Part shown: piece by piece, positions 33,269-50,568 of the stretch
How the letters are laid out: every line of letters starts with the position of its first letter
Position numbering within the stretch: position 1 is the first letter of the stretch
Source of the DNA: a virus
DNA length: 51,802 bases
Strand: one strand, 5' to 3'
IMG/VR virus record: IMGVR_UViG_3300022928_002119
Location: 1-51,802 of that record
The notes under the pieces: model-generated
The model's input: the letters and a program-made list of their open reading frames with translations, nothing else
The model's database searches: none
What the model was told of the DNA's origin: nothing
Program-made: the position numbers and the translations under genes

Positions 33269-34193
33269 AATAACTTTCAAGTCCTTGTCTCAGTGAATAT
33301 TGTGGTTCGTACCCGAGTAGATCCTTTGCTCTGCTGATGTCTAATGTGCCACGCATTGGATACAGTTTTTGCATACCTATGTCCTTTATTTCAGAGTTAC
33401 TGCCTGTGATCTCTATTATGGTCTCCGCCAGATCCCTAAGGCTGGTTGCATTGCCGGCGGTTATGTTAAAACTTGTGTTGGCTACCTCGGAGTTGGCCGC
33501 TTGTATTATTCCATATGCGGCATCCTGCCTGTATGTGAAATCAACTTTATTTTGTCCGTTATGCAATTCAATGGTTTCATTGTTCATCGCTTGGTGAAAG
33601 AATTTAGAGACCACCCTATCTGGAAGATCGCCGGGACCGTACACACCACTGGGCCTCACTATCGTGTAGTTCAAACCATCACGCTTGGCGAACAGTTTCG
33701 TTAACCTCTCGCCAGTCAGTTTGGCCTCACCGTATATGTTCTGTGGTTTGGTGTTTGACTCCTCCCGTGTTCCGTCAATGAAATCTCCGTAAACCATGCT
33801 ACTGCTGATGTAAACAAATTTCTTTGTGTTGAATTCAGCGGCATGCCATAGTAGGTTGGTTGTCGTGCCAATCACCTTGGGTATGCCATTTATTGGATCC
33901 TGTTCTACTATCTTAGCCCTAGGATAGGTGGCCAGATGTATCACAACGTCAGGACGATGACTAAAGGCTTTAAGGCATACCATCCTATCAAGTATGTCAC
34001 CCTTGATCACGTTCACGTTCCTGTTTATCCAATTACGTGTCCTCCATGCAACAAGTTTGTTCAACTCCACCTTTGTCAGTATGTCGTATGTGTCCTCGTT
34101 GTCCACACAAGTTATGCTGTGTCCTTCATTGGAAAGTTTCTCAATTATTTTTGACCCAATGAATCCCAGTCCGCCTGTTATTAAATATTTCAT
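33243..34193 (-). CDS. NAD-dependent nucleotide-sugar epimerase/dehydratase
   Basis: This 316-residue enzyme opens with KYLITGGLGFIGSKI, has YISSSMVYGDF, catalytic YGEAK, VRPSGVYGPGD and FNITAGN. It matches GalE/RmlB-type extended SDRs. ATG 34193 shares a base with the stop of the lipoprotein gene (TGATG). Its product could supply the keto-sugar for the DegT-like aminotransferase encoded next. It is similar to the epimerase at 29892 in the HLATYP and SSSMVYGDF segments, so one probably arose from the other or from a common source. Confidence 0.9.
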   Translation of the reverse strand: MKYLITGGLGFIGSKIIEKLSNEGHSITCVDNEDTYDILTKVELNKLVAWRTRNWINRNVNVIKGDILDRMVCLKAFSHRPDVVIHLATYPRAKIVEQDPINGIPKVIGTTTNLLWHAAEFNTKKFVYISSSMVYGDFIDGTREESNTKPQNIYGEAKLTGERLTKLFAKRDGLNYTIVRPSGVYGPGDLPDRVVSKFFHQAMNNETIELHNGQNKVDFTYRQDAAYGIIQAANSEVANTSFNITAGNATSLRDLAETIIEITGSNSEIKDIGMQKLYPMRGTLDISRAKDLLGYEPQYSLRQGLESYYDWLQNQI

Positions 34194-34342
34194 CAAAACT
34201 CCTTCTTTATTTCGACCTGTGGATTCTCAACACAACTGTCTTTGATCTCTTTCATTGTTTCTTTGTTAAAATCTACGTCACAACTGGCACTGGGTTTGAT
34301 CCCGCACCCTACCACTAATAATAACACGATTAAATATTTCAT
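34193..34342 (-). CDS. Small lipoprotein
   Basis: This 49-residue protein starts at ATG 34342, which overlaps the carbamoyltransferase stop (ATGA). The N-terminus KYLIVLLLVVGC has a positively charged start, a hydrophobic core and a lipobox ending in GC at Cys13. The mature part is about 36 residues, polar, with two more Cys. It would be secreted by the general pathway and lipid-anchored. Rz1-like spanin or a surface protein are options, but it lacks the proline-rich body of Rz1. No family is recognised. Confidence 0.72.
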   Translation of the reverse strand: MKYLIVLLLVVGCGIKPSASCDVDFNKETMKEIKDSCVENPQVEIKKEF

Positions 34343-35811
34343 CCTAGTACTTTCACTCCGTATTTGTTGGTAAACGCTTTACCATCGTCTCTATCATTCA
34401 CTATCGGTTGTCCTTTTATGTTCAAACTTGTGTTTAAAAGTATTGGGCAACCAGTCTGTTTTTTCCATTCTGTTAACAACGCATGAAACCCTGGATTATC
34501 CGTCTTACGCACCGTTTGAACCCTACTTGTGTGATCATGATGTATTATGGCAGGGAAGTCTTTACCATGCGTACACGCCGCTGTAAATTGCATATAAGGT
34601 GTGTTTTGAACTGCTTTAGGTAGGGTGAAATACTCGTTTACATCCTCCTCTAATATGGCCGGAGCAAACGGTCTGAACTTCTGCCTTTTCTTAATCGAGT
34701 TTACCAAATCCTTGATGTCCTCACCCCTGGGGTCTGCCAGCAGTGATCTATTACCAAGTGCTCTCGGACCAAACTCCGCCCTACCACTTGCTACTCCCAC
34801 CATCTTGTTTTCTTTCAATTCTTTTATGAGTGCATCCACGGGATACTCCCCATCTATGTTGTGTCCAAGGAATGGGTGTTGCCAATCAAGATGCTTTTTC
34901 TCATGTGCGGCTATACAGCCCAGGCTGGATCCTGCATCTCCAGGATTTGGTATGATCCATATGTTGTCAAACAATTCCATGTTGGCCAATACCCTGTTCG
35001 CGGCACAATTGAGTGCCACTCCGCCTGCATACACCAAGTTCCTACTGCCATACTTGGATGCCCTAGCCCAAAGGTCAGCAAGTAGTTCTTCTGTGACTGC
35101 CTGTATGCTGGCCGCTATGTCCATCACGTCTGCGTTTGGTTCCCAGTCTCTCAGTCCCCTGTGTAAATTTTTTTTAAGTTTGAACGGTGACTGCTCTACG
35201 AAGTCGTCATATATCTTTTGTTTGTACTTGGGTGTTCCATACGCCGCCATGCCCATCAGAATGTATTCCTCTTCCGCAGGCTTGAGTCCACAACGATGTG
35301 TGAATGCACTGTACAGTATTCCTACACTGTGTGGATACTGTATGGTTTCTTTTCTTTCTATGTGATTGTTATATGCTGTTGATATGGAAACGGTGTCCCA
35401 TTCTCCTATCGCATCCACTGTCAGTATGGTCGCACCCTCGTCCTTGAACGGTGATGTGAAGTACCCTGCCGCGGCGTGTGAGTCGTGGTGTTTGACGTAC
35501 TCGTCTATCTTAATGCCAAAGTGATCCAGATGCCATTGTGGCATCTCCGTGTAACTCATGGCCATGCCATACTGTCCTGCGTAGAACTGTCTCGTTTTTT
35601 TAAGCAAGGGTTTCTCGTAGTACACCACTTTGTCGAAAGGACCAAACGTGTTGGCCTCGTCCACTATCTTCTGATTCAGGTAGTGATCGTTCTTGACTTT
35701 GCTGTATCTCTCACTATGAGCCGCCCATAATATTTCTCCCGTGCCCGAACTGTAGTCCACTACAGCCATGGCGGCATCATGGTTCATGCAGTTGATTCCT
35801 AGTATTCTCAT
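34339..35811 (-). CDS. Carbamoyltransferase, NodU/CmcH family
   Basis: This 490-residue enzyme transfers a carbamoyl group from carbamoyl phosphate to a hydroxyl, via carbamoyl-AMP. The N-terminal kinase-like domain has ILGINCMNHDAAMA (His11) and VKHHDSHAAAGYF (His109, His110, His113). The C-terminal YrdC-like half includes AEFGPRALGNRSLLADPR and LNTSLNIKGQPIVN. Known relatives decorate Nod factors, antibiotics and sugars. ATG 35811 overlaps the upstream stop (ATGA) and is preferred to an in-frame start five codons earlier. It probably adds carbamoyl to the sugar made by its operon partners. Confidence 0.95.
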   Translation of the reverse strand: MRILGINCMNHDAAMAVVDYSSGTGEILWAAHSERYSKVKNDHYLNQKIVDEANTFGPFDKVVYYEKPLLKKTRQFYAGQYGMAMSYTEMPQWHLDHFGIKIDEYVKHHDSHAAAGYFTSPFKDEGATILTVDAIGEWDTVSISTAYNNHIERKETIQYPHSVGILYSAFTHRCGLKPAEEEYILMGMAAYGTPKYKQKIYDDFVEQSPFKLKKNLHRGLRDWEPNADVMDIAASIQAVTEELLADLWARASKYGSRNLVYAGGVALNCAANRVLANMELFDNIWIIPNPGDAGSSLGCIAAHEKKHLDWQHPFLGHNIDGEYPVDALIKELKENKMVGVASGRAEFGPRALGNRSLLADPRGEDIKDLVNSIKKRQKFRPFAPAILEEDVNEYFTLPKAVQNTPYMQFTAACTHGKDFPAIIHHDHTSRVQTVRKTDNPGFHALLTEWKKQTGCPILLNTSLNIKGQPIVNDRDDGKAFTNKYGVKVLG

Positions 35812-36143
35812 TTGCCGATCTCCCAACCTATCACTACACCGTAATTCTCTTCGCCGTTGTGCTTCTCGTATGCTGGAGAGATAAACAATCCTCCTGCCTT
35901 GTATCTTATCATTGGCATTATGTCCTCCGACTTGTATCCAGTGACCAATCCAAGTTCCAGTGTCCAGTGTTCGTCCAACTCAAACTCCCTGCCAACATAT
36001 GTGCTGATCCTGTCCTCGGAGTTGTAATACACACCGGCTATCTTGTTGTCCACTGTGCACCTTGCGTGTGGATGAATGTTGTTGTAATCCGCCTCCAGAC
36101 CAACATGCATTGACAGTGCCAAGAACAGTCCTAAACAGTTCAT
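35808..36143 (-). CDS. Small exported protein, putative
   Basis: This 111-residue protein starts at ATG 36143 (ATGA overlap with the GNAT gene). The first ~15 residues (NCLGLFLALSMHVGLEA) are hydrophobic and look like a signal peptide. The rest is beta-rich (YVGREFELDEHWTLELGLVTGY, GGLFISPAYEKHNGEENYGVVIGWEIG), which suggests a small beta-barrel or periplasmic protein. No family is recognised. Its stop overlaps the carbamoyltransferase start. Confidence 0.65.
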   Translation of the reverse strand: MNCLGLFLALSMHVGLEADYNNIHPHARCTVDNKIAGVYYNSEDRISTYVGREFELDEHWTLELGLVTGYKSEDIMPMIRYKAGGLFISPAYEKHNGEENYGVVIGWEIGK

Positions 36144-36697
36144 TTGATATTGAACCATCCTTTCGCCCTGTCCCTCAACTTCTCCCAATCATTCAACTCT
36201 ACGTCGTACTCGAAATTCTGTGTTGTGAGGTTGACCTGCACTTCCTTGGCTCCGTTCTTGAGATGAAACTTACGTGCCATGTCCGTGAGAGGACTCAATG
36301 TGATCAATCTGTTGAGATGGTTTGATTGTTTGATCATCTTGTACACCTCATTGACCATGTGCTTTCCACCACCTTTCTTCTTGGCCCACACCGTGTAGGC
36401 TATCGCTATAGAACCCTGTTGTCCTGCCCTGTGTATGGCCTGCATGGCGGCGTCCTTGCTCATGGTGTCCATCTCCTCCACGCTCTTGGGGATACCGTGT
36501 GTGAATGCGAAACACATGACGGCCGCTATGTCGCCCTCCTCGTCCTTGATGCCATATATCTTCCTGCCGTAGGCCTGTCTGAACTCCAGGCTCAGTTCAG
36601 GTCGCACAGGATCTTCCGTGACATCTATGTACGGCAGTTCGATCAGTTCGAACTGGGGCGTCTTTTCCAACGCTTTCTTGATTTTTTTGAGCACCAT
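36140..36697 (-). CDS. GNAT-like acetyltransferase domain protein
   Basis: This 185-residue protein shows a GNAT-like pattern: the DIAAVMCFAFTHGIP strand, a GSIAIAYTVWAKKKGGGKHMVNEVYKMIK region like the acetyl-CoA pyrophosphate loop and helix, and the closing SPLTDMARKFHLKNGAKEVQ, which matches the last beta-strand/helix pair. It would acetylate an amino group; the substrate is unknown. ATG 36697 is one base after the small upstream gene. Its stop overlaps the next gene. This is a pattern match by eye. Confidence 0.6.
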   Translation of the reverse strand: MVLKKIKKALEKTPQFELIELPYIDVTEDPVRPELSLEFRQAYGRKIYGIKDEEGDIAAVMCFAFTHGIPKSVEEMDTMSKDAAMQAIHRAGQQGSIAIAYTVWAKKKGGGKHMVNEVYKMIKQSNHLNRLITLSPLTDMARKFHLKNGAKEVQVNLTTQNFEYDVELNDWEKLRDRAKGWFNIK

Positions 36698-36698
36698 C

Positions 36699-36803
36699 CT
36701 ATTTGTATATGAATGGGTCTTTCTTCTTTAACTCTTTGAGTCTCTTCCTGTACTTGATCTCTTGTTTGATCTTGTTGATCAGGTTCTTTATCCAAGTGAA
36801 CAT
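36699..36803 (-). CDS. 34-residue basic peptide, conserved in marine phages
   Basis: The frame runs from ATG 36803 to TAG at 36699: FTWIKNLINKIKQEIKYRKR, then LKELKKKDPFIYK. It is an amphipathic helix, charged, ending in DPFIYK. Tiny proteins of this kind, ending in the same motif, occur in cyanophages as I recall. The start overlaps the hydrolase stop (TAATG), and its own stop is one base before the next ATG. It could be a membrane-associated regulatory peptide. Confidence 0.65.
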   Translation of the reverse strand: MFTWIKNLINKIKQEIKYRKRLKELKKKDPFIYK

Positions 36804-37597
36804 TATCTGTCTCCTATCAGTTTGTTAAAAGTTGGTAACATTAATTTTACAGCATCTTGGTGTGCCTCGTCAAGTGGATGTGTGGTGCCACGTGGATAGT
36901 CATTCAATAATGCCCATTGATTGAAACCCATCATCCTCTCTCCAAAACTATACCATTTGGTAAAGTCTATCTCGTTGTGGAGACCCATCAAAAGACTGTC
37001 TTGATCTTTATGGTGTTTCAACTCGTCATAGAAGAGGCTATTGTCGGCCATCGTGAACATGTATGGTATTTTTTTCTTCTCTAGGATGTTCTGCAACCAG
37101 ATAATGCTCTTCCAACTGAGGTAGGTCTCATGGTACTGGTTGGCCGCATATTTGTATATGGCCTCGGCAAAAGGTTTTACCCCAGATTCTAGCATGTTGT
37201 TTTGTCTGGTTTTCCATTGCTCCTGCTGTGTTTCTGATCCCTGCATTGTCCTAAATGCTTCCACGTTTCCGCCTGTTGTGTCCCATGGAGAGATACTTGT
37301 CCACCTTGTGTCCTCTAACATTTCATTCCTGGGCATGGCCCAATCATAACGAGAGAGAAAACTCCACATGACCAGCACACAATCAACGTCACTGTTCTGT
37401 GACACGGCCTTGAATGTCCTACGTGCTATAGCACTGTTGCCTGCTCCACCAGACGCAGTGCATATGTAGTCATCGTATGTTGCTTCTGTCAGCCTATAGG
37501 CCCATGTCTTCTTGGATGGTGTCTTGCCGTCCACATCATCCGAGAGTTCATTCCCTAGCGTGAAACTGCAACCTCCTATAATTACTTTCTTACTCAT
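36803..37597 (-). CDS. SGNH/GDSL-like hydrolase
   Basis: This 264-residue protein has the block layout of an SGNH hydrolase. Block I is VIIGGCSFTLGNEL with the likely nucleophile Ser in GCSFT. A glycine/asparagine block GGAGNSAIARR follows, and the last block HPLDEAHQDAVKLML carries the Asp/His pair. Such enzymes remove acyl groups from sugars or polysaccharides. It overlaps the radical SAM gene (37590) by 8 bases. A second one lies at 42626. Confidence 0.7.
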   Translation of the reverse strand: MSKKVIIGGCSFTLGNELSDDVDGKTPSKKTWAYRLTEATYDDYICTASGGAGNSAIARRTFKAVSQNSDVDCVLVMWSFLSRYDWAMPRNEMLEDTRWTSISPWDTTGGNVEAFRTMQGSETQQEQWKTRQNNMLESGVKPFAEAIYKYAANQYHETYLSWKSIIWLQNILEKKKIPYMFTMADNSLFYDELKHHKDQDSLLMGLHNEIDFTKWYSFGERMMGFNQWALLNDYPRGTTHPLDEAHQDAVKLMLPTFNKLIGDR

Positions 37598-38768
37598 ATA
37601 TCTTCAGTATGTTATTTAAAAGTGGAAACATGTCTCCAAAATTTTCTTTCCTGTATGCATCTGTTTGTAATATTCTTCTTTTCCTTTCTGCTCGTATCTC
37701 TGGTGTATCCCTGTCCGCGGCATTCATGAACCTGATGCTGGGCTGGTAGTCAGTCAGCATGTGATACCTGTCCACCACTATGTCCTTGACCTGCCTGGGC
37801 AATGTCTGTATGTTGAACACAACTGGATCAAAGCAGGTGTTCACATAGAAGAACTTGGGTTGGAACTGTGCCACCCACAGTGCCATCTTGGCCCAGTTGA
37901 ACACGTTGAAAATACTCACCGTAGAACATATCTGGAAGTCCATGTTTGCCGTCTTCATTTCCTTGAACTTGATCAGATTCTGATTCACTTCCCTCCACTT
38001 GGCAGGATGTCTCTGGTATTCGAAAGGTTCTCCCACGTCATCAATGCTGAAGGCCACTTCAACGTGCTTGAAGTAACTCCACAGGTCGAATATGTCCTTA
38101 GGTGGCAACTGTGTGCCGTTGGTGTTGTAGTGTATGTCTATGTTCTTGGCATAACCCTTCTCCACACAGTGCATCAGAATCTTGAAATGATCTCGGATCA
38201 TGAACGGCTCGCCGCCTGTGAACTCGAAGTACTCCACGTGTTTTAGATCCTCCTGCAACTCCTCAAAAAATTGTGGGTTACGTTTTGGCCAGCCGCCTTC
38301 CTTGAGTTGCATCCTTGCCAGTGGGTTGTCTCCGCCTTTGGCCGTCTCGTAATCTATTTCTTCCTGGGCCCACTTCGAGGAACTCCATGATCCACATATC
38401 CTACACTTAAGATTGCACACATTTCCCAACTTAAAGTCAATAAATTTTAGGGTTGGCTCGCTATTGGGGGTCCAGTTTTGTAGACTGCTACGCATTTTGT
38501 AAATAGAATTTTGTCTCTTCGAAGTCTTGCCTGCATCTTCCTCCTGCCAACAGCTCTGGCAACCAGCAGGGCGTTCACCATTCCTGAACTGTTCACGTAG
38601 TCCCGCCATGTATTCTGTGTCTTGTATGGATTTCAAACTCTGTTTGTAAACTTTCACACCAGGCACACTGCCCTTGTACAGACAACAAGGCGAGGCACCA
38701 CCGTTAACATCAACTTCTAGGTGCGTCCATGGCAACGGGCACACATTTGATTTTATATACTTGTCCAC
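37590..38768 (-). CDS. Radical SAM protein with N-terminal SPASM/twitch-like domain (first of five)
   Basis: This is a 392-residue protein. The N-terminus has CPLPWTHLEVDVNGGASPCC (Cys10, 28, 29) and GCQSCWQEE (Cys70, 73), like the auxiliary-cluster domain normally found at the C-terminus of SPASM enzymes. Then comes the radical SAM core with CNLKCRIC (Cys118, 122, 125) and FTGGEPF. It ends FGDMFPLL. This is the N-terminal-twitch type (N_twi_rSAM), known from marine phages without known reaction. The start is GTG 38768 or TTG 38771, overlapping the previous gene. Confidence 0.88.
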   Translation of the reverse strand: MDKYIKSNVCPLPWTHLEVDVNGGASPCCLYKGSVPGVKVYKQSLKSIQDTEYMAGLREQFRNGERPAGCQSCWQEEDAGKTSKRQNSIYKMRSSLQNWTPNSEPTLKFIDFKLGNVCNLKCRICGSWSSSKWAQEEIDYETAKGGDNPLARMQLKEGGWPKRNPQFFEELQEDLKHVEYFEFTGGEPFMIRDHFKILMHCVEKGYAKNIDIHYNTNGTQLPPKDIFDLWSYFKHVEVAFSIDDVGEPFEYQRHPAKWREVNQNLIKFKEMKTANMDFQICSTVSIFNVFNWAKMALWVAQFQPKFFYVNTCFDPVVFNIQTLPRQVKDIVVDRYHMLTDYQPSIRFMNAADRDTPEIRAERKRRILQTDAYRKENFGDMFPLLNNILKIYE

Positions 38769-40036
38769 CAATCCAACACCCTTTCGTCTCTGCTCAATAT
38801 CTTTGTTATATCTTGTCTCCTGATCTTGTCAATGCGTTCTTGTCTTTGTTTGCCTTTTTTTGTAGGAACGAATGTTTGTCTCTGTCTCAGATTCTTTAAA
38901 ACATCTATCAATGATCTTTGCTTTCGCGTGGTAAGTGGTTCCATGTAGTCTAGTGCTTCGTCTATTAGTGTTTCCAATAGGTGTTTTGGTAGAGAAAGTG
39001 GACTCAAAATCTCATCATTGCTAAAAGTAAACATGACTTTTGTCAGTATCTCTGTGTCCAGCTCTCTGCTTAGATCAAACATTTTTTTAAGTTCCAGTAA
39101 ACCAGGCATTGTTATAGTGTAGTCCAATCTCATTTCCCTAGATGTTTTTGCAACTGCAAGTCCTTCTTTAAAATTTTCTAACCACTGTTCGTAGTTCAAT
39201 CCGTCCCTGATGTACTCCCCTACTTCTCCCGTTCCATCCAGTGATGAACATATCTGCCAGTCCTGAAACTGTGGCAGTAGGTCAAACAATTTGATTCCTT
39301 TGAAGGAAGTCCTGCTTAGATTCGTGTTGTATCTCACATACACTTCTTTGGCGAATCCCAGTTCTATTATCCTCTGCATGGCCTTCCAATGCATATCCCA
39401 CATCAGAGGTTCTCCACCACACCAGTATATTTCTTTTATGGTTTTTGTTTCTACCGCTTCAACGAACTCTTGCACAACCTGTGTGTCCTGGAACTTCGTT
39501 ATCTGTTCTCGCAATGGTGACGCCATCCATGGCTGTGATTCTTTCGTCCATGTTTTGTGTTTCCTTGACTCCGCTTCCCAACTCGAACTCAACATGTCTC
39601 CACACATCCTACATTTGAAGTTGCATAGGTTATTGAACCTGTAATCAAAACTGATGGTTGGCATAGTGGTCGCCCCTGTTCCGTCTGTACTGTCAAACGC
39701 TTCGTCTATTTTGTGTTTGAATAACTGATTCCAGTATGACCTATACACATCTGTGTTCAACAGTTTATGATCACACACTTCACATTCAGATAATTCATCA
39801 CCTGCCATCATACGCAGTCTGACAGATCGCATGTGATCTGAATTCCAATGTTCCTTCAGTGTCAGTGGTTTGTATTCTTTGGCGTCATTGCCTGTGTCTA
39901 TGTACTGCCTGAAACTCTGTGCAGGCTCTCTGGATGCACAGCACATACGTCTTTCTGTCTGCGGTGAAAGGTACGTGTGTGTCCAAGGAGCCATGCAGAA
40001 GGTTTTATTTCCTTCACTCGGTTTAATCCGTTTCAT
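38753..40036 (-). CDS. Radical SAM protein with N-terminal SPASM/twitch-like domain (second of five)
   Basis: This is a 427-residue protein. Auxiliary Cys14, Cys32-33 (MCC), Cys85 and Cys88 lie in the N-terminal domain. The radical SAM site is CNFKCRMC (Cys138, 142, 145) with CGGEPLMWD as the SAM-binding glycine motif. The C-terminus has RRQDITKILS, similar to the closing segments of its neighbours. ATG 40036, which overlaps the upstream gene by 14 bases and follows GCGGAAC, is chosen over TTG 40048. The chemistry is unknown; it is homologous to the next three genes. Confidence 0.88.
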   Translation of the reverse strand: MKRIKPSEGNKTFCMAPWTHTYLSPQTERRMCCASREPAQSFRQYIDTGNDAKEYKPLTLKEHWNSDHMRSVRLRMMAGDELSECEVCDHKLLNTDVYRSYWNQLFKHKIDEAFDSTDGTGATTMPTISFDYRFNNLCNFKCRMCGDMLSSSWEAESRKHKTWTKESQPWMASPLREQITKFQDTQVVQEFVEAVETKTIKEIYWCGGEPLMWDMHWKAMQRIIELGFAKEVYVRYNTNLSRTSFKGIKLFDLLPQFQDWQICSSLDGTGEVGEYIRDGLNYEQWLENFKEGLAVAKTSREMRLDYTITMPGLLELKKMFDLSRELDTEILTKVMFTFSNDEILSPLSLPKHLLETLIDEALDYMEPLTTRKQRSLIDVLKNLRQRQTFVPTKKGKQRQERIDKIRRQDITKILSRDERVLDWWTSI

Positions 40037-41306
40037 AGAGTTCCGCAAGTTCTGGGAAAGTTTTGACTATGTCTTCATTCCTAATGACGTCCATCCTCTG
40101 CATTGTTTCTTTGAACTGATTTATATCTTTAGAATTATTTCTTCTCATCATGTAATCTAACCCTGCCTCAAAGCCCTTTGTGGCCCTTGTTAGATTGTCC
40201 AACGGACGTAACCATTCTATGTGTTTCTCGTATTTCTCTTTGACTTTTTGTTTGAAACTATCTGGTAAAAGATCAATCCTCTGTGCAAACGGATACTGTA
40301 ACAAATTAAAATTGAAGTCCTGTGGTTTCAACAATCCTTGGTCCACCCAACTTCTATGGAAATCAACAATGTGCAATGAGTTGATAAGCCCTACCGTGCT
40401 TGATATGTAGAAATCAACCTGGGAACATACTTCTAGCATACGTTTCCTGTTGGCCACCACATCTTTCCACACTGTTCCTTTACGCATGTATTCTGCTCTG
40501 TCGCCTTCTGCATCTAGGCTGGCTCCTATGGACACTGAGTCAAACTTGTTCCAGAGTTCCAACACATCCATGTCTTTGAATTTAAGTCTAGTAAAGTTTG
40601 TGTTGTAGATCAATCTCACGTGATACATCTTACGTTTGTCTAGCTCTTTCAATATCCTGTAGTGTTCTTCCATTATAAGTGGTTCGCCTCCCGCAAAGTA
40701 GAACTGCTCAACATGATCGAACTGTTCTAACATCTGCTCCCATATGTCGTCTGCTGTTCTACCCACTCTTATGATTTTTGCATGTCCGGGAGGGCCTCCA
40801 TTCAATTTTTTATGATCTTCATACCAATTTGAACTGAACCATGTACCACAACTTCTACACGCTAGGTTACACAAGTTGCTGAACCTTATATCCCAGTACT
40901 TGATGACAAAGTCTGCTGTGCCATCTGCTTTTGTGTTCTCTGTCATACCTATGTTGTGTCCAAAATGCTTGTTAGAGCTCAAACGCAGTGAGAAGAAACC
41001 CGACTTCTCCTGGTCATAACACTTGACACACTGTTTGCTCTTCTTGTTGTTCAGCATGTTGACACGCATCTCTTTCATGTCGGGTCCATTGAACACAGTC
41101 TCCATGGAATCCTTGTTCAAGTTTCCTACGGGATGGTTGTCTAGACCAAAACAGCAAGGGAATGCCCTACCATCTGGAAAGGCGTGCAAGTGAAGCCACG
41201 GCATCATGCAGAATGTGTCACTTTCTATCAGCAACTCCTTTTCCCTGGGAGTCATGTCGTTAATCTTTAGTTTTTCGGGCTCTTTGGCTCCGTACTCATA
41301 TGCCAC
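40023..41306 (-). CDS. Radical SAM protein with N-terminal SPASM/twitch-like domain (third of five)
   Basis: This 427-residue protein starts at GTG 41306 with GGAG upstream. N-terminal cysteines: FCMMPWLHL (Cys33), FPCCFG (Cys51-52), QCVKC (Cys93, 96). The radical SAM motif is CNLACRSC (Cys146, 150, 153); AGGEPLIME follows. The C-terminus is EDIVKTFPELAELY, the same closing motif as in three of the other copies. It overlaps both neighbours. Sequence divergence from the other copies suggests different substrates or different sites on one substrate. Confidence 0.88.
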   Translation of the reverse strand: MAYEYGAKEPEKLKINDMTPREKELLIESDTFCMMPWLHLHAFPDGRAFPCCFGLDNHPVGNLNKDSMETVFNGPDMKEMRVNMLNNKKSKQCVKCYDQEKSGFFSLRLSSNKHFGHNIGMTENTKADGTADFVIKYWDIRFSNLCNLACRSCGTWFSSNWYEDHKKLNGGPPGHAKIIRVGRTADDIWEQMLEQFDHVEQFYFAGGEPLIMEEHYRILKELDKRKMYHVRLIYNTNFTRLKFKDMDVLELWNKFDSVSIGASLDAEGDRAEYMRKGTVWKDVVANRKRMLEVCSQVDFYISSTVGLINSLHIVDFHRSWVDQGLLKPQDFNFNLLQYPFAQRIDLLPDSFKQKVKEKYEKHIEWLRPLDNLTRATKGFEAGLDYMMRRNNSKDINQFKETMQRMDVIRNEDIVKTFPELAELYETD

Positions 41307-42639
41307 GATACCATTCTCCTATTATTGGGAAAGTCTTTTCAAAATCCTTTCCTGATCTTTTGTCGTATTGACTGTAAAATGCTTTAAAATCTCGTTGTAG
41401 TTTACTCTGCTCGGCCGCACCCGCATGCGGTGTTTTCACAACATCCAAGTAATCGATTAATCTTTGTGTGTGATCTATTTCCATGCTCTCCAGCCATTTA
41501 CTGTTATTAGTTAAGAACTTTTCAAGGTCGCTCTTGAATTTATTCCTGAGATCATCTGGTAGTACTAGGGGCGACTGGAAACTAGGAAACCTAAGTATGT
41601 TCAATGTGAAGTTGATGCTAGGACCATACACTTTGCCGGCGTTTTTGAACCAGATTATCTTTTCCAAGAACTGTGGCAGTGATTCAAGACACAATGCATT
41701 TATTGTGGCCATGTTGTGTATGGCACGTGGTACCTTGTCTACCATCATGTGCAACATGTTTGAATGCCATGCACCGTAGTCTAATCCGTCACGGATGTAT
41801 TCCGCCTGTGTGAATGTGGCCTCACAACTAGTGTAGAGTTCAAACTTATCAAATTTTTTAAGTTTGTATTTGAATCTGTCAATTATGCTCTGCTTTGCAC
41901 CTAGGTTGCTGTTGATCGCTATCACCATGTTGGGATTCATCTTGTCACCTTGTGTTTCTATCCAGTCCAATAGGCGCCAAAGATTAGGAGACATCATTGG
42001 TTCTCCTCCTGTGATCCTCAGTTCGTCAAGTGTTCTATGCAGGTCGGATTCCCACCATTTGTAAAACGCTTCAACATAAGGATTTACCTCGTCTTTCTTG
42101 TATGGTTCGGCAGAATCGTGTGTGTGAGTGAAATGATTCCTGCCATCTGTCTCAAGTCCTGTGTATGGCCCTTTTTGCTTTATGTTGTTTGCCCATGTTG
42201 AACTGAATGCTGGATTGCAGTATGTACAAGCGAAATTGCAGGTCCTGTCAAATGCTATCTCTAATGTTTTCAAATTCACGTTGTCGTTGTGGTCATTTTT
42301 GAATGCCTTGTTTAAGTCATCATTTGTGAATATCTTTGATTTATAAACCCTATCGCTGATGTTGTCTCTGCCCACATCCTCTATCTTCCAACAGTACTCG
42401 CAACCTGCGGGTCTTTCTCCACACTGCATCTGCCTTCGTTGTTCTTTTTTCTGTTGTGTGTTGTGTATTGCACTTGGATTGTTTTTTATTTCTTCTAGGT
42501 CAATCCTGTGCGGCAACGGATGGTGACAACTGGTAGTCATTCCTGAACCTAACCAAATTGTGGCGTTGTACCATTTTGCTCCACAAAAACTGGCGCTCTT
42601 TGTGTCTAGTATCTTTTTCTTATATTCAAGATCGTTCAT
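41296..42639 (-). CDS. Radical SAM protein with N-terminal SPASM/twitch-like domain (fourth of five)
   Basis: This is a 447-residue protein of a distinct sub-type. Cys19 (FCGAKWYNA), Cys38 (TSCHHPLPHRID), Cys80 and Cys83 (GCEYCWKIED) form the N-terminal domain; the CC pair of the others is replaced by C-H-H. The core is CNFACTYC (Cys134, 138, 141) with ITGGEPMMS. A KDFEKTFPIIGEWYRGI tail closes it. ATG 42639 follows GAGGAACC and overlaps the SGNH gene stop. It is most similar to the fifth copy at 43356. Confidence 0.88.
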   Translation of the reverse strand: MNDLEYKKKILDTKSASFCGAKWYNATIWLGSGMTTSCHHPLPHRIDLEEIKNNPSAIHNTQQKKEQRRQMQCGERPAGCEYCWKIEDVGRDNISDRVYKSKIFTNDDLNKAFKNDHNDNVNLKTLEIAFDRTCNFACTYCNPAFSSTWANNIKQKGPYTGLETDGRNHFTHTHDSAEPYKKDEVNPYVEAFYKWWESDLHRTLDELRITGGEPMMSPNLWRLLDWIETQGDKMNPNMVIAINSNLGAKQSIIDRFKYKLKKFDKFELYTSCEATFTQAEYIRDGLDYGAWHSNMLHMMVDKVPRAIHNMATINALCLESLPQFLEKIIWFKNAGKVYGPSINFTLNILRFPSFQSPLVLPDDLRNKFKSDLEKFLTNNSKWLESMEIDHTQRLIDYLDVVKTPHAGAAEQSKLQRDFKAFYSQYDKRSGKDFEKTFPIIGEWYRGI

Positions 42640-43363
42640 CTGGTTCCTCAAAGTAATTTTTCAGTTTGTCGTATTCGTCTTGTGGGCAGAGCATGTTGCT
42701 CTGGAACATTATGTCTTTCACCCAGTGATAGTGTGCTATGGGTGGAGGATGTGTATCTCCAGGCATGTAGTATTCCTTGTAATTATCCTCTGCAAATTCC
42801 CATAGGCCTTTTCTATCCTTATAGAAAAGGAACTTACTCCAATCTATCATGTTGTACAATGCTTTTTCACTTTCACTGTAAAAGTTATCACGTAACACGT
42901 CCTTGTTGAATAACATCATTGTGTAATGGATTTTTTTGTTGTCTAGGAACATCTGTGTCCTGTGTATGTGTTCCAATGTCCTGTAATATTGGTGTTCTTC
43001 ATTCCAGAAATAGCGCCTGTAGTACTCGTGCTTGTCCTGTTCAGGATGTCCGCCATACCAGGTACTCCACCTAAAATCCTCATTCCATACATTATAGGTC
43101 ATATTTTCTTTTAGTTCATATTCGCTTTTATCTTTCGTTATTATTTCATACCTGTCTGTGCCAGACCACATTATGTACATGTGTCTTATGTTTTTGTATT
43201 TCATGGCGCTGTTGATGACCGCACGTGATATTGTTTCATTTCCGCTACCTGACCTGCCTTCGTTTTTCATTATTGTTCCGCTATTAAACCATGTCACGAA
43301 CTTAGGCCAGCAAGGCCACTTGTACCTTGTGAAACTGCAACCGTGAGCGATAATATTATGCAT
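42626..43363 (-). CDS. SGNH/GDSL-like hydrolase
   Basis: This is a 245-residue protein. HGCSFTRYKW has the nucleophile serine, GRSGSGNETISRAV the Gly/Asn block, and DTHPPPIAHYHWVKD the Asp/His pair. It is related to the one at 36803 (both GCSFT, then SGSGN/GGAGN). It sits between the fourth and fifth radical SAM genes and overlaps both, which suggests that hydrolase and radical SAM act on the same substrate. Reaction, perhaps removal of acyl groups, is inference. Confidence 0.7.
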   Translation of the reverse strand: MHNIIAHGCSFTRYKWPCWPKFVTWFNSGTIMKNEGRSGSGNETISRAVINSAMKYKNIRHMYIMWSGTDRYEIITKDKSEYELKENMTYNVWNEDFRWSTWYGGHPEQDKHEYYRRYFWNEEHQYYRTLEHIHRTQMFLDNKKIHYTMMLFNKDVLRDNFYSESEKALYNMIDWSKFLFYKDRKGLWEFAEDNYKEYYMPGDTHPPPIAHYHWVKDIMFQSNMLCPQDEYDKLKNYFEEPDERS

Positions 43364-44726
43364 TCTTGCACTCCTCCCAGAACTCCTCCATCTCGGGGAA
43401 TGTGTTCAAGAACCTTGTGAGACGTCTGCGGTCGTGCTCGTTAAAGAAAGCGTAAAAGTTTTTTTTGTTTTGCGTACTTGCGTCAGCGTTTTCGCGCCAA
43501 TATGCGAGGTTCCTCTGCATCTTCTGGATCTCAAAATCCTTGAATATGTGTAGACCATTGTCTTCACCGGAATTATCCTGCATGTACTTTATGTTGTCCT
43601 CATGTATACTCTGATATGACTCTGGTAACAAGGTGATTTGTTGCCATGCGGGTTGCCTCAGCAATGGCACGTCGAACCACACCCTCTGATAGGTCTTTGA
43701 GTACTTGGTACGCAGTTCCAGTATCTTCTCCAGCAGTTTGTCCATACTTGTTATGCTGAGGTTGTTGTATGTGCATATGAATGTGATAGAGTTACGGCCA
43801 GGTATCCTATCCAGGAACTCCTCCACGTTGTCCATCATGTAGTTGAAGTCCAACCCGTCCCTGATGTACTCCGCACGTTTACCGTATGCATCAACACTCA
43901 CGAACTGCATCATGTGTTCCACCTTTTCCTGCATACATATCTCCTGTGCCATGTTGAAGTACTTCTCCTTGAGTTTCTTTTCTGGAGGACACATGTTGCT
44001 GGTTACATTGAGATGTAGGTCCTGTTTGGGATTATCGATTATGTACTGGAACACCTTGTAGGTGTTCTTGTCCATCATGGGTTCACCACCGGTCATACGG
44101 AAGTGCTTGAGGTTCTTGTACAGCGTAGGCCACCATCGCCAGAAAGCGGTCACGTATGGGTTGTCATCCCTGTGCGGGATAGGCCTTCGCCTGCCCTGGA
44201 AATGCTCTGGTGCGTTGTGGGGCGGAGATGTGGGATATTCTCCGTACCTGTCCACCTCCTTGCCCCACGTGGTCGAGAACTGTGGACTACAATAACTGCA
44301 CTTGAAGTTGCAGGCGTTGTTGAAGTTGACCTCTACGTACCTGGGTGTCCACTTTTCATCTATGGGGTTCTTCCTTATGTCATCGAAGTCCTGCATTGCC
44401 CATGGTTCCCCCGAACGGTAGTGCCTGTCCGACATCTCGCCGGTCTTCTCTATGTTCCAGCAGTAACTACAGCCACCTGGCTTGTCGCCGTCCAGCATCA
44501 TGGCACGTTCCTGCAGTTTCTCGTGTGTGTTGTGCAGTGCGGCCGGGTTGTCCTTCAGCATGCCTTCGTCTATCCTGTGCAATGGTGGATGATAACAACT
44601 GTTGGTCAGTCCTGTTGGCAAGTGCAGTGACGTCTGGTTCCATTTGGCCAGGCACATGGTGGGCGATACTGTGGACAACTTGTCCTTGGCCCTCAGTGCG
44701 TCTGCCTTGTAATCACTTGTACTCAC
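43356..44726 (-). CDS. Radical SAM protein with N-terminal SPASM/twitch-like domain (fifth of five)
   Basis: This is a 456-residue protein when begun at GTG 44726, 14 bases before the upstream stop ends and after GGGGGTGC. A longer frame from 44858 would lie over 145 bases of the previous gene and has no homologous sequence in the other copies. Cys25 (MCLAKWNQ), Cys44 (NSCYHPPLHRID), Cys86 and Cys89 (GCSYCWNIE) match the fourth copy. The core has CNFKCSYC (Cys139, 143, 146) and MTGGEPMMD. The tail LTRFLNTFPEMEEFW is the shared closing motif. Confidence 0.88.
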   Translation of the reverse strand: MSTSDYKADALRAKDKLSTVSPTMCLAKWNQTSLHLPTGLTNSCYHPPLHRIDEGMLKDNPAALHNTHEKLQERAMMLDGDKPGGCSYCWNIEKTGEMSDRHYRSGEPWAMQDFDDIRKNPIDEKWTPRYVEVNFNNACNFKCSYCSPQFSTTWGKEVDRYGEYPTSPPHNAPEHFQGRRRPIPHRDDNPYVTAFWRWWPTLYKNLKHFRMTGGEPMMDKNTYKVFQYIIDNPKQDLHLNVTSNMCPPEKKLKEKYFNMAQEICMQEKVEHMMQFVSVDAYGKRAEYIRDGLDFNYMMDNVEEFLDRIPGRNSITFICTYNNLSITSMDKLLEKILELRTKYSKTYQRVWFDVPLLRQPAWQQITLLPESYQSIHEDNIKYMQDNSGEDNGLHIFKDFEIQKMQRNLAYWRENADASTQNKKNFYAFFNEHDRRRLTRFLNTFPEMEEFWEECKNA

Positions 44727-45615
44727 GATCTTGCACCCCCTTGTTGATGTGTTGTGGCATGCAAAATTTGAAGAACCTACTTTGTTCTGCTCCCAACTCC
44801 GCCACTGGTATGTCCAACTGGTTGCGTAGGCTTTCGCCGTACAATCGTATATCCTCATCCAAATCGAACATGTGATCTTCCAGGTGTTTTTGATACACCT
44901 GCTTCATGCCCCGGAGGTCAGATATCTGCTCAACGTCATTCTTATCCAGTGTTGTGGCATAACAGCCGATCCTTGCACCCAACATGGCGTATTTGCCATT
45001 ATCCACGTCTGCCCCGACCGACATCCATGTCACTAAATTCTTAAGATTGGATGGCCAGATCTTCTTGCTGAAATCACCTGGTTCTATCCTCATACCCTGT
45101 TCGAGACTCATCTTTACACCCTCCCTGTAGCCGGCCACGAATGCCTGTCTCGGTGTTGCATTCATCACTGTCTCGGAATAGCAGTTGTGTAGGTTCTCGT
45201 GTTTGACCGTCCAACAGAAATCCAATTTGGCACGTGGATCTTTGGCATTTTCGTGCGTATGCATGGTCAAGCAAGTTTCTTTATCCCATCCTACAAGTCC
45301 ACCGTTACCATAGACAAGGCCGTTGATGCTGTTTTTTGCCCTCCACCTGTGTACTGCTTTCCTGTCTGTCTTGGTCCAGTCCAGTGTTTGTAGCAAGAAA
45401 CTTTCGTCTATGATGTTGTCTCCGTCAACACTGATGAAAAAATCTGTTTCTGCTATCTCTGCCGCGGCCTTGTGTGCGGAGTCAAATCCCACCACGCCAT
45501 CCACACGCTTGGCCCAAGGCACCTTGTTCACCAGGTCAGCGTAGTTGTAGTCCTTGTTGGGTTCATCGAAACTGATGAACACAAAATCCAAATCTGTTAT
45601 TCTGATCTTTTCCAT
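44713..45615 (-). CDS. Putative glycosyltransferase, GT-A-like
   Basis: This is a 300-residue protein. FVFISFDEPNKDYNYADLVNKVPWAKRVDGVVGFDSAHKAA leads to DFFISVDGDNIIDESF, a DxD-type nucleotide-sugar/metal motif (DGD). Further on, RWRAKNSINGLVYGNGGLVGW is typical of GT-A donor-sugar regions of marine phage proteins. Substrate unknown. The start codon overlaps the previous gene. It directly precedes the first radical SAM gene in transcription order, so it may share its substrate. Confidence 0.65.
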   Translation of the reverse strand: MEKIRITDLDFVFISFDEPNKDYNYADLVNKVPWAKRVDGVVGFDSAHKAAAEIAETDFFISVDGDNIIDESFLLQTLDWTKTDRKAVHRWRAKNSINGLVYGNGGLVGWDKETCLTMHTHENAKDPRAKLDFCWTVKHENLHNCYSETVMNATPRQAFVAGYREGVKMSLEQGMRIEPGDFSKKIWPSNLKNLVTWMSVGADVDNGKYAMLGARIGCYATTLDKNDVEQISDLRGMKQVYQKHLEDHMFDLDEDIRLYGESLRNQLDIPVAELGAEQSRFFKFCMPQHINKGVQDREYK

Positions 45616-45863
45616 GTAAAACTCTCTTTTGGCCAGAACGGATCTGATTTCAAATTTTCAATTTCAGGAAACACGTTCCTATCTATCTTTCTTTCCACCT
45701 TGACGGGCTTTCCCCCCTGAAGGACGTAATTGTTCTCTCCGTTGTTTATAATCTCCAATTTTTCATTCAGCGACACTTCCACTTCCTTGCCCTGTATCTT
45801 TACCAAATGTCTTTTCACGGACCGTTTTGGTAGATCTGCGAATGCCTTAAACAGTTCTTGCAT
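45597..45863 (-). CDS. Small hypothetical protein
   Basis: This 88-residue protein overlaps the gene before by 17 bases and the one after by 19. The composition is basic; it has an amphipathic start (QELFKAFADLPKRSVKRHLVKIQGKEVEVSL) and a repeat of short strands. No family is recognised. Because it lies between two sugar-transfer-type genes, it may be an accessory subunit, but nothing in the sequence proves this. Confidence 0.6.
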   Translation of the reverse strand: MQELFKAFADLPKRSVKRHLVKIQGKEVEVSLNEKLEIINNGENNYVLQGGKPVKVERKIDRNVFPEIENLKSDPFWPKESFTWKRSE

Positions 45864-46653
45864 CTAACACCTCCAAGAAATTTTTGTAGAAGTAATGAAG
45901 TGGTGCAGTTACCTTTCTTTCTCCAAAGAACAAAGCATCATCTATCCTCATTGGATAGTAGTAGTTGCTAGGATCGTAGTTGAATGTGCCCTGATGGACA
46001 GCCGGCTTGTTGTGTATGAACTTGAACCATGGGTAGTCAAGCAGTTGTTCACAGGCGGGATCAATAATCCTGTACGCAAGAGCATACACCACGTCTGTAG
46101 TTGGCAACTGGTCGAAACAATTTACTAGAAGATTTTGCCTTACAAAATTCCAATTTTTTACAATCGCTCCGCACGTATCATAAAATTTTTTTGCAAACAT
46201 GCTTCTACGGAAATATGTCATTCCATTGTACAAGTTTGGCAGGAAATTTTTTGCATGAAAAGGCCTGTATTCTTTGTCCTTCACTCTCTTCTCTTTGTAA
46301 TCAAAACAATCAATCGAGAACACTAGATCATGTTGCCACAGATAGTACCACCACCAATCGGTATTGGTGTTCCATAACATGTCCGCTTCAAGTTTTATGG
46401 TGTGTGTAAATGGCGTGAGTTGAAAAACTTGATATTCGTTTGCGAACTTTTTCACATGATCCTGTGCATCGTCGTTGGTCAAGACTTTGACTACATCAAC
46501 GTGTTCGCTCTTGAACACGCTGTCTTTGTCCACTATCACACACACATTATTTTCCTTGTTGTGTTTTTTCAACGTCCTTGCCAATTCACATGATAATTTT
46601 GAATAGTCTGTTTCAGTGCTGTTCTGGCAGAACCAGACAAATCCCTTAGACAT
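45847..46653 (-). CDS. Putative glycosyltransferase, GT8/GT-A-like
   Basis: This is a 268-residue protein. An N-terminal GFVWFCQNSTETDYSKLSCELARTL is followed by NVCVIVDKDSV, and IKLEADMLWNTNTDWWWYYL carries the ExDxx pattern of a GT-A nucleotide-sugar site. It is similar in layout to its neighbour at 46646 (VVMDVDYF). Possible transfer of a sugar to a phage or host surface glycan is inference. ATG 46653 overlaps the upstream stop. Confidence 0.65.
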   Translation of the reverse strand: MSKGFVWFCQNSTETDYSKLSCELARTLKKHNKENNVCVIVDKDSVFKSEHVDVVKVLTNDDAQDHVKKFANEYQVFQLTPFTHTIKLEADMLWNTNTDWWWYYLWQHDLVFSIDCFDYKEKRVKDKEYRPFHAKNFLPNLYNGMTYFRRSMFAKKFYDTCGAIVKNWNFVRQNLLVNCFDQLPTTDVVYALAYRIIDPACEQLLDYPWFKFIHNKPAVHQGTFNYDPSNYYYPMRIDDALFFGERKVTAPLHYFYKNFLEVLDARTV

Positions 46654-47395
46654 TGGCCACCTCCTTGGTTAAAAAATGCAGATCTTGATCACACAGTTTG
46701 ACTGTTATGTCTTTCCATCTCACAACCGCACCGTTTTCCTCTAGGTTCAAAATTTCGGCATCAGCAGGGACGGTGGCGATGCTGTCGGGTATGATGTCAT
46801 AATCACCGTGACCAGATATCTGATTCAAGGCGATTGCGAATGCGTAATCATTACGGAAATTTGGATATGTGATCCTGTATAGATTACAGTAATGCACATA
46901 ATTTTGTTTGACCAATCTGACCGTATCAAATATGGCCTTGGTCCTTGGTGTTTTTCTGAAAATCAAGACCGTGGCCCATACAAGATCGAGCATCGCATCT
47001 CTGTGGTATTCCATTTTCTCACTTTTGATCACATCGTGTGCATCCTTGTGTACTAGGAAATCACTTTCTGTGTTTGCTAATCTCAACAACTTATCCGAGT
47101 AACAGAAATAATCCACATCCATGACCACCGTGAGGTCGTATGGTGAGTGATCATAGGCCATGTGCCTTTCGAGGTTGTACCATGGTTTGCCCAACTTGGT
47201 GTTGTTTGTTTCGTTGTCCATGATCTTGTAATTGATCATTCCCATGGGACCAAAGTTCTTATAGGTGTCCCAGTTTGTCACGACAGTGATGGGCAATTTC
47301 AAATGCTTTTTGATCAGTGCAACACAGCGTTCAGTTATTTTGCTGTATGCCACCTGACTGGTATCAAAACAGTAAAGCAGTACTCCTGTAGTCAT
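46646..47395 (-). CDS. Putative glycosyltransferase, GT-A-like
   Basis: This is a 249-residue protein. GVLLYCFDTSQVAYSKITERC, LPITVVTNWDTY and LTVVMDVDYFCYSDKL give the Rossmann-like fold and a DVD metal/nucleotide motif, as in GT8-type enzymes. YNLERHMAYDH and FLVHKDAHDVIKSE follow. ATG 47395 shares a base with the preceding stop (TGATG). It is the second gene of the long operon. Confidence 0.65.
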   Translation of the reverse strand: MTTGVLLYCFDTSQVAYSKITERCVALIKKHLKLPITVVTNWDTYKNFGPMGMINYKIMDNETNNTKLGKPWYNLERHMAYDHSPYDLTVVMDVDYFCYSDKLLRLANTESDFLVHKDAHDVIKSEKMEYHRDAMLDLVWATVLIFRKTPRTKAIFDTVRLVKQNYVHYCNLYRITYPNFRNDYAFAIALNQISGHGDYDIIPDSIATVPADAEILNLEENGAVVRWKDITVKLCDQDLHFLTKEVANV

Positions 47396-47712
47396 CACAC
47401 CTTTCTGTTTCTGATGTCTTGGTATAGTTGGTGATAGGCGTTGAGTGCTGATTGGTTTTTCTTCAATAAAAGGTCAAGGAACTCAGTTGGCTCTTTGATC
47501 TCCACAGGGTTTGAGTTTGAGTCGAGAATGAAAAAACTTTTCCCACCCTCCGACGCCGTCTTCACAAGACATATGGTCTCGGGATCAGCACGGAAGATGT
47601 GGTTCTGATACACAAGTACCTGATCGGATTGTGCTTTCCTGAGGGCGTTGGCCTTCTGTGTGTTGAAGTCGAAACTCTGTCTGGATAGCTCTTTCAATTG
47701 ATCTATGTTCAT
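47395..47712 (-). CDS. Hypothetical protein, first gene of the long leftward operon
   Basis: This 105-residue protein is soluble, with IDQLKELSRQSFDFNTQKANALRK at the N-terminus and EFLDLLLKKNQSALNAYHQLYQDI near the end. The ATG at 47712 is only six bases after a TATAAT on the same strand, so its mRNA is probably leaderless, as for the genes at 7590 and 18198. No family is recognised. Confidence 0.65.
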   Translation of the reverse strand: MNIDQLKELSRQSFDFNTQKANALRKAQSDQVLVYQNHIFRADPETICLVKTASEGGKSFFILDSNSNPVEIKEPTEFLDLLLKKNQSALNAYHQLYQDIRNRKV

Positions 47713-47765: not shown

Positions 47766-48728
47766 TTAAGTGGTACCGTTTTGTTCCGTGGCCGTAGTGC
47801 TTGGTGTGTAAACCACGCTAAGACCTTCCGCGGTGGTTGGATTTATGGTAAACAGTGTGGTCACCATTTTTGGTGTGTCCTTGATACCGACCGGAATGCT
47901 TGATGTGTTACCACTTGTGAACTGTGTGTCCGCCGCCGCATCCGAGGCTGTCATCTTGACGAATATCTTCGTGGCTGATCCTGGAGCCGCGTCCAACTTG
48001 GCTTCAATTTTAAGGGTGTTTGCGTTGTAGGCCGCGTAACTGCTCTGTGTCAGTAGGAGCAGTGTGGTGTAACCTGTTCCTAGGTCATAGAAACCGTTGG
48101 CGAGACCGTTGGTGGTGGTCGTGTGTCCTGAACCTGATCTCGTTGTGGACTGTGATCCTATGTCAAGGTTGCCAGTAGCATTACCCAGTCCTACGAAGGC
48201 CGTGTCCTTGGCACTCGTTGATGCCGCTGTGGCCCCAACCGTGATCCTTACCTTGCCGCCAGCGTTGAAGAACCATCTCATCTGATTGGCATTGGAGAAA
48301 CTCACTGAAACTTCCTGGAAGGCCGTGTTGTCCCAACCCTCCGAACCTGTGGTCACCGTCTGCAGTGCCGAAGATGTGGTTTTTGCAGTTGCGCCTGTTG
48401 ATCCTGCCGCGACCGCCGTGGCAAGCGTTGACAGGTCCGTCGCTATGGCCGACGCTATATTGATATTGTCACCGGCTGATACTGCTCTTCCCACGAAGGT
48501 TGATTGATTTGTGTGATTGGCAATGTTGTCCAACCCTGTGAATAGACTGTTCCACTGAGATGCATTGATGGTATTGCCTGGGGAAACTGTTGTAATCTCT
48601 GTCTGTCCCAGTCCATAATTTAGGCTTCCTGTGCCTGCGATATGATTGTATCCGAATGGACTTGAACTGTTGTTGACGAAAGCGTTGTACTCGTCGTCTA
48701 AAATTGTATCACCTGCTACGTATGCCAT
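47766..48728 (-). CDS. Tail-fibre or tail-structure-like protein
   Basis: This 320-residue protein is rich in Ala, Ser, Thr, Gly and Asn. The N-terminus (AYVAGDTILDDEYNAFVN) and LNYGLGQTEITTVSPGNTINASQWNSLF are typical of tail-fibre or adhesin-linked phage proteins. The middle holds strand/loop repeats (GKVRITVGATAAST) as in a beta-rich domain. It lies five bases after the stop of the 48733 gene and has GGAG before its ATG. Specific place in the virion is not known. Confidence 0.72.
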   Translation of the reverse strand: MAYVAGDTILDDEYNAFVNNSSSPFGYNHIAGTGSLNYGLGQTEITTVSPGNTINASQWNSLFTGLDNIANHTNQSTFVGRAVSAGDNINIASAIATDLSTLATAVAAGSTGATAKTTSSALQTVTTGSEGWDNTAFQEVSVSFSNANQMRWFFNAGGKVRITVGATAASTSAKDTAFVGLGNATGNLDIGSQSTTRSGSGHTTTTNGLANGFYDLGTGYTTLLLLTQSSYAAYNANTLKIEAKLDAAPGSATKIFVKMTASDAAADTQFTSGNTSSIPVGIKDTPKMVTTLFTINPTTAEGLSVVYTPSTTATEQNGTT

Positions 48729-50558: not shown

Positions 50559-50568
50559 GTGTATTTAC
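50559..50568 (-). promoter_or_regulatory. Late-promoter-like motif GTAAATACAC
   Basis: On the minus strand GTAAATACAC overlaps the stop of the glycine-rich gene and precedes the start of the small tail gene by 12 bases. It is the same ten bases as at 22142 on the plus strand. The TAAATA core is like that of T4 late promoters, and tail genes are expected to be late. Confidence 0.45.

Follow-up and report, generated by a model that had tools for sequence, protein, structure and literature searches.

Why should a virus encode, one after another, five radical S-adenosylmethionine (rSAM) proteins whose auxiliary cysteines stand before the catalytic core and not after it? The question is raised by the 51.8-kb IMG/VR virus record IMGVR_UViG_3300022928_002119 (51,802 nucleotides, analyzed in full and referred to here as the window), a fragment of a T4-like phage whose DNA polymerase has its nearest counterparts in two jumbo phages, Phosso (51% identity) and Atu_ph07. 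The five genes, designated rA to rE, occupy the minus strand from 44726 to 37590 (Table 1), and the frames and coordinates of all five open reading frames (ORFs) were verified. We propose that the encoded N-twitch rSAM enzymes would form one co-inherited pathway in which five proteins process a single substrate in turn, each of them carrying a 4Fe-4S core that binds SAM plus an auxiliary cluster. That substrate would be a glycan borne by the phage's own fibre, and the individual rSAM steps may oxidise, epimerise or deoxygenate it at unactivated C-H bonds. We assign a probability of roughly 40% to this reading, namely five-step radical tailoring of an unusual glycan with the virion as its favoured carrier.

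All five products belong to NF033640 (N_Twi_rSAM), a subfamily model without an assigned reaction, which they match over their full length with 297-415 bits against a cut-off of 170 (E 2e-88 to 3e-124); none of 14 control genomes passed the same cut-off. Pfam placed a SPASM domain at the N-terminus of rC, rD and rE, followed by the radical SAM domain, and rA and rB scored below the Pfam radical SAM model's own cut-off. The CX3CX2C core motif is present in all five proteins and in each orthologue counted, auxiliary cysteines lie N-terminal of it in 5/5, and no conserved set lies C-terminal of it; the classical SPASM/twitch definition, with the auxiliary domain C-terminal to the core, applies to none of the five. 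In rC the order is C33, C51, C52, C93 and C96, then the core at 146-153, and in rA it is C69, C88, C130 and C133, then the core at 183-190, in the numbering of a longer mechanical ORF of 500 aa that extends to 44858 and adds a disordered N-terminus. The initial annotation, made from the sequence before any database search, had described just this array, with a CC pair in three proteins, a C-H-H variant in two and an FP-type ending in four, and each of these details was borne out: the CC pair is found in rC, rD and rE, C-(H/Y)-H in rA (131/131 orthologues) and rB (132/134), and the FP-type ending in all but rD. A scan of orthologues found the twitch motif C-x9-16-G-x4-C ... CxxC in rA, rB, rC and rE; in rD the glycine is mostly absent, the cysteines are retained and the CxxC-before-core pattern occurs in 118 of 119 sequences. 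The cluster motifs are thus intact across nearly all orthologues. Since the C-(H/Y)-H variant alters only the second cysteine of the pair and keeps the four twitch cysteines, a different ligand set is not implied, and judged by these residues the variant need not be evidence for a different cluster in rA and rB.

Structure prediction, which the initial annotation had recommended for comparison with SPASM enzymes, gave an rSAM fold in both cases modelled. AlphaFold2 returned a mean predicted local distance difference test score (pLDDT) of 94.6 and a predicted template modelling score (pTM) of 0.90 for rC (52-sequence alignment), and 88.1 and 0.85 for the longer ORF of rA (44-sequence alignment), and both models, like their Foldseek matches, contain the partial (beta/alpha)6 barrel core of rSAM enzymes. 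The best Foldseek matches in the Protein Data Bank (PDB) were CteB, anSME, SkfB, BlsE and viperin for rC and viperin, SuiB and SkfB for rA, all with low TM-scores; AprD4 was also present among the matches. A sequence search for solved relatives of the rSAM proteins gave weak rSAM-core matches only. The NF033640 E-values and the pLDDT of the two models argue that the five-gene array is not due to chance, and we infer that rA-rE bind 4Fe-4S clusters and are catalytic.

The same genes recur, with their order kept, in dozens of IMG/VR contigs, and nearly 100 other uncultivated viruses hold these five together; the profile search yielded at least about 600 stretches, and all locus counts are lower bounds. 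In a maximum-likelihood tree each family formed one clade (support 99-100; 100 for each of rA, rB, rD and rE), with about one copy per phage, rA and rB as sister families and a few extra long-branched N-twitch copies outside the five clades. On phylogenetic grounds, rA-rE are five ancient orthologous families. Among 86 non-redundant loci delimited by the glycosyltransferase-like gene GTc and the carbamoyltransferase gene Carb, 84 contained all five, in the order ABCDE in 35 and ABCED in 32, so that the search for this set among marine phages, suggested by the initial annotation, had a pathway-like outcome. A wider sample, mostly reached via rC or rA, comprised 125 viral loci that have the GTc core and extend far enough downstream. 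There, 91 loci held the full set (A 99, B 95, C 97, D 93, E 92), and those with rE also had rA, rB and rC in 92/92 and rD in 91/92; sampling through rC and rA inflates the A and C counts but leaves unaffected how often B, D and E occur together. When sampling was centred on GTc instead, the full set was present in 7 of 38 loci and none of the five orthologues in 21, some of which carry other N-twitch genes. These proportions indicate that the set is a discrete cassette on a core able to exist alone, added to that core and not a fixed part of it. Moreover, dN/dS against the nearest relatives was 0.02-0.08 where computable, with dS near saturation. The five families are therefore under purifying selection, and the degeneration that would have spoken against them is not seen: they are intact, and they are kept as a linked set, fixed in composition and order.

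Further N-twitch genes are abundant in large relatives. Among 17 large viral contigs (139-347 kb), 16 had 8-21 each and the seventeenth had one; the maximum of 21 was reached in a 347-kb contig, and the extra copies sampled in one 347-kb contig were dispersed among other phage genes. Such genome-wide scatter, together with the divergence of rC, rD and rE independently of other genes (see below), is what one would see if the rSAM genes were accumulated mobile or moron-like copies with no common pathway. However, the five orthologues are ordered and near all-or-none, and the rarity of arbitrary subsets, the intact motifs and the low dN/dS are not expected from independent morons, which makes mere accumulation highly improbable. 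Accordingly, rA-rE very probably represent an obligate five-step set, and it is plausible that, as suggested earlier, they act at several positions of one complex substrate.

What that substrate might be is indicated by the neighbouring genes. The constant partners of the set are the two GT8-like glycosyltransferases GTa and GTb, GTc (present in 74 of 85 divergent loci), the carbamoyltransferase and fibre-like genes. Carb accompanies 80 of 91 full-set loci vs. 4 of 32 others, which, because the loci are mutually related, is to be read as an association and not as an independent test. The linkage to sugar genes claimed in the initial annotation holds in part: it is borne out by the likeness of GTb to glycogenin and by Carb, while the nucleotide-diphospho (NDP)-sugar genes (epimerases, DegT) differ from locus to locus. 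Based on the two GT8-like enzymes, GTc and the carbamoyltransferase, plus the variable sugar-nucleotide genes, we lean slightly towards a glycan as the substrate. Sugars or aminocyclitols are the substrates of the twitch/SPASM rSAM enzymes BtrN and NeoN, and the window enzymes would share with them, and with AprD4 and BlsE, radical SAM chemistry on such substrates; they differ in that the auxiliary domain of those four, if any, is C-terminal. T4-like phages are also known to glycosylate their DNA, and with a GTP cyclohydrolase I gene and an apparent QueE-like gene in the window one could imagine that the enzymes make a hypermodified base or nucleotide. Keeping in mind that the module is linked to fibre, not replication, genes in nearly all loci, and that the window has no recognisable gene for a hydroxymethylase or TET/JBP protein, we consider this a very long shot.

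The position of the module points to the carrier. Fibre-type genes lie directly upstream of it in nearly all loci; the tail-fibre and glycosyltransferase-like core is fixed, and the five rSAM genes come after it. The structural protein str544 has homologues in Atu_ph07, Phosso and PA5oct; str320 gave no match in PHROG. Pairwise distance matrices over 32 marine loci revealed one block formed by str320, h105, GTa and GTb, whose distances intercorrelate with r 0.60-0.84 and more weakly with the remaining genes, and a second formed by str544, GTc, rA, rB and Carb (r 0.57-0.81), with rC, rD and rE in neither. This pattern fits GTa and GTb being matched to str320 and h105, and rSAM alleles being exchanged singly yet always retained; recombination between neighbouring genes is another possible source of the blocks. 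The tail-fibre locus and the co-diversification of GTa and GTb with str320 and h105 make the fibre a candidate carrier of the glycan, so that we tentatively, and with less confidence than for the glycan itself, place the modified glycan on the virion.

The same gene content could serve to change the host surface polysaccharide during infection, e.g. to block superinfection, since GT8-type enzymes, epimerases, an aminotransferase, a carbamoyltransferase and SGNH-like genes resemble an O-antigen tailoring inventory. The host-recognition cluster described for pelagimyophages is likewise a variable island within the structural region, where radical SAM cassettes accompany tail-fibre and glycosyltransferase genes; for its glycosyltransferases such a role at the host surface, with alteration of the host O-chain, has been proposed (PMC7029224). 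Nevertheless, superinfection exclusion would be expected of early genes, and these lie in a structural locus downstream of fibre genes; nor would GTa and GTb be expected to co-diversify with str320 if their action were purely host-directed. We therefore judge a host-surface role unlikely.

The fibre genes immediately 5' of the module in nearly all loci bear equally on a different scheme, in which a protein, most likely a tail-fibre protein, is itself the target of the enzymes, in the manner of SPASM peptide maturases, and its altered side chains are subsequently used by the glycosyltransferases. The presence of CteB, anSME and SkfB among the best Foldseek matches of rC, and of SuiB and SkfB among those of rA, is in keeping with this scheme, as are the rSAM genes that follow the str544 homologue in Atu_ph07 and Phosso, some of which weakly resemble the maturases PapB, DynA and DarE. 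Against it, the TM-scores are low and reflect the common rSAM core, the carbamoyltransferase association suggests sugars, and alignments of the small proteins h105 and h88 contain no conserved core-peptide pattern in a search that covered ORFs down to 60-75 aa, so that they are improbable candidates for precursors of ribosomally synthesized and post-translationally modified peptides. Direct protein modification thus appears to us to be about as doubtful as a host-surface role.

With respect to known systems, the favoured glycan pathway gains some support from the cultured phage CP220. The Campylobacter phages CP220 and CPt10 carry interchangeable modules of five rSAM genes with an amidinotransferase (PMC2853527). 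CP220 is likewise a T4-like phage, its five rSAM genes stand together near baseplate genes, and it pairs them with two NDP-sugar transferase-domain genes; amidinotransferase relatives also adjoin some N-twitch clusters. The CP220 proteins differ in having the CX3CX2C core N-terminal with the extra cysteines after it, i.e. in the ordinary orientation, the five score marginally against the N-twitch profile (best 1.4e-7), and the transferases have no match to the GTa, GTb and GTc profiles. In the jumbo phages Atu_ph07 and Phosso several rSAM genes form one run directly after the str544 homologue, but their cores are near the N-terminus, they are not N-twitch proteins (best profile E 2.8e-8) and no homologues of GTa, GTb and GTc were recognised. 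Further, a published marine T4-like TARA genome has 12 rSAM genes, with many Fe-S enzymes alongside Fe-S assembly genes (PMC5332604). The five-rSAM modules of CP220 and CPt10 and the rSAM genes at the jumbo-phage str544 locus limit the novelty of the array: five in a row are indeed present, yet the initial annotation's surprise at finding them in a phage must be tempered by these comparable modules and by the 12-gene genome. The N-twitch orthologous set itself was not described in any paper found, and the relevant passages of PMC7029224 and PMC5332604 contain no description of it.

Several considerations weigh against the glycan-on-fibre reading. Position in a fibre locus is no proof of a virion substrate, and the divergence of rC, rD and rE does not track that of the fibre genes. 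In the 21 GTc-centred loci mentioned above, str320 and the GT-like genes stand without the five orthologues, and GTc matched nothing in PDB and has no recognisable relative of solved structure. Many of the closest solved folds are peptide-modifying enzymes. Finally, we know of no N-twitch enzyme with a known reaction; the literature searched for N-twitch function or for rSAM modification of fibres yielded none, in agreement with the initial annotation, which had regarded the family as known and knew of no reaction for it.

The N-twitch proteins are a large family with no reaction assigned, and the module, which keeps five orthologues beside candidate substrates and glycosyltransferases, is a compact, expressible system for finding that reaction. 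If our reading is true, it would give N-twitch enzymes their first function and, to our knowledge, would be the first radical-chemistry tailoring of a virion; with the product on the virion, radical chemistry would join the means by which phages vary receptor-binding structures. The module also has a bearing on the question why some large phages keep 8-21 genes of a single radical SAM family, to which one of them adds IscU-like and IscA-like proteins of its own. We can only tentatively suggest the broadest form of this idea, i.e. an ancient, obligate five-step pathway of reversed auxiliary-domain architecture, widespread in uncultivated T4-like and jumbo phages, that makes a glycan of new chemistry, or a glycosylated protein modification, on the phage's receptor-binding fibres.

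Outside the uncultivated viruses the set is scarcely represented. The 50,697 deposited phages contained no match for rA, GTb, GTc or str320, and rC matched only Vibrio phages K566 and K567, the sole deposited isolates in which N-twitch clusters were found, and one single-cell marine contig; rC also had no match among plasmids. Deposited phages carry distant N-twitch relatives only. Cellular homologues are mostly orphan singletons in Flavobacteriales, Marinifilaceae and Bacteriovoracia with no constant neighbour, and the attempt to derive a function from them was dropped for that inconstancy, leaving two natural-product-like contexts as leads. In these, from Paenibacillus (L174:10004-11293) and a member of Bacillota (L217), N-twitch genes adjoin ORFs that by appearance are carrier-protein-like and ketosynthase-like, possibly hinting at carrier-bound substrates. 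In Halobacteriovoraceae (L161) and Oligoflexia (L162), five N-twitch genes surround a short glycosyltransferase-like gene. Contigs of cellular metagenome-assembled genomes assigned to Rickettsiales, Pelagibacter, Verrucomicrobia and Flavobacterium (L145-L148) contain near copies of the phage genes and are probably misbinned phage DNA. In one locus (L430; G004:291500-296000) of the sampled 347-kb phage contig, an N-twitch rSAM gene is separated by one gene from those for an IscA-type Fe-S protein and a scaffold of the IscU/NifU type. Two dispersed N-twitch copies, G004:318146-319294 and G016:61858-63048, each contain one in-frame TAG.

Table 1. Genes of the rSAM module and its surroundings in the window.
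Gene	Coordinates	Strand	Description	Evidence or remark
glycine-rich putative adhesin	50568..51800	-		open at contig end
str544	48733..50367	-	virion/tail-fibre-type structural protein	PHROG tail fibre and virion structural matches
str320	47766..48728	-	fibre-like, from composition and position	upstream in nearly all loci
h105	47395..47712	-	small conserved protein	co-diversifies with str320, GTa, GTb
GTa	46646..47398	-	GTb relative	hhalign 99.5% with GTb
GTb	45847..46653	-	GT8/glycogenin-like glycosyltransferase	profile vs. glycogenin E 6e-6
h88	45597..45863	-	88-aa small partner protein	
GTc	44713..45615	-	300 aa, invariant DGDN motif	glycosyltransferase-like from motif alone
rA	43356..44726	-	N-twitch radical SAM, 456 aa, GTG start at 44726, C-Y-H type	NF033640 E 6.6e-96
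S1	42626..43363	-	GCSFT-motif (SGNH-like), 245 aa	sole gene between rA and rB
rB	41296..42651	-	N-twitch radical SAM, C-H-H type	NF033640 E 2.4e-88
rC	40023..41306	-	N-twitch radical SAM, CC type	NF033640 E 2.9e-124; SPASM 6e-11, residues 33-97
rD	38753..40048	-	N-twitch radical SAM, CC type, without FP ending	NF033640 E 2.3e-95
rE	37590..38771	-	N-twitch radical SAM, CC type	NF033640 E 3.3e-107
S2	36803..37597	-	GCSFT-motif (SGNH-like)	after rE in most marine loci
185-aa protein	36140..36697	-	often between S2 and Carb in marine relatives	without convincing Pfam match
Carb	34339..35826	-	carbamoyltransferase, NodU/CmcH type	Pfam Carbam_trans_C 1.5e-54, Carbam_trans_N 2.8e-42
NDP-sugar epimerase/dehydratase	33243-34196	-		Pfam
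DegT aminotransferase	32174-33280	-		Pfam

As shown in Table 1, the ORFs from h105 through S2 overlap in a single run on one strand. Gene counts were made with simple ORF calling, and the labels of GTc, h105, S1 and S2 are motif-based. The initial annotation had the array interrupted by an SGNH hydrolase; one intervening gene is indeed there (43363-42626), but S1 and S2 have no Pfam match and the SGNH label rests on the GCSFT-type motif. S1 is variably present and missing from many relatives, and another SGNH-like family, in related loci, matches GDSL lipase. A further family, C3 (350 aa, e.g. L258:13737-14810), without a Pfam or PDB match and missing from the window, adjoins rD in 61 of 85 divergent loci and mostly accompanies the full five-gene set; the solved-structure search for GTa, GTc and C3 gave nothing convincing.

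Scans of the window for sigma-70 promoters and terminators gave nothing beyond chance level, and a search for Fe-S assembly motifs, confined to the window, gave zero candidates. The T4-type late motif ATAAATA occurs once, vs. 7.1 copies expected from shuffles, and was of no use for delimiting the transcript. Elsewhere the window encodes a peroxiredoxin (9024-9560), the GTP cyclohydrolase I (12196-12909), a DUF6614 protein (16867-17286) and, at 17274-18161, an ORF that looked QueE-like, which Pfam did not confirm. A PagP-like PHROG match lies near the cluster at 35808-36188, and the PagP gene of Vibrio phage K566 is also near its N-twitch genes. The window contains one more rSAM gene, the sixth, which is of the B12-binding type and lies outside the cluster at 22845-24776.

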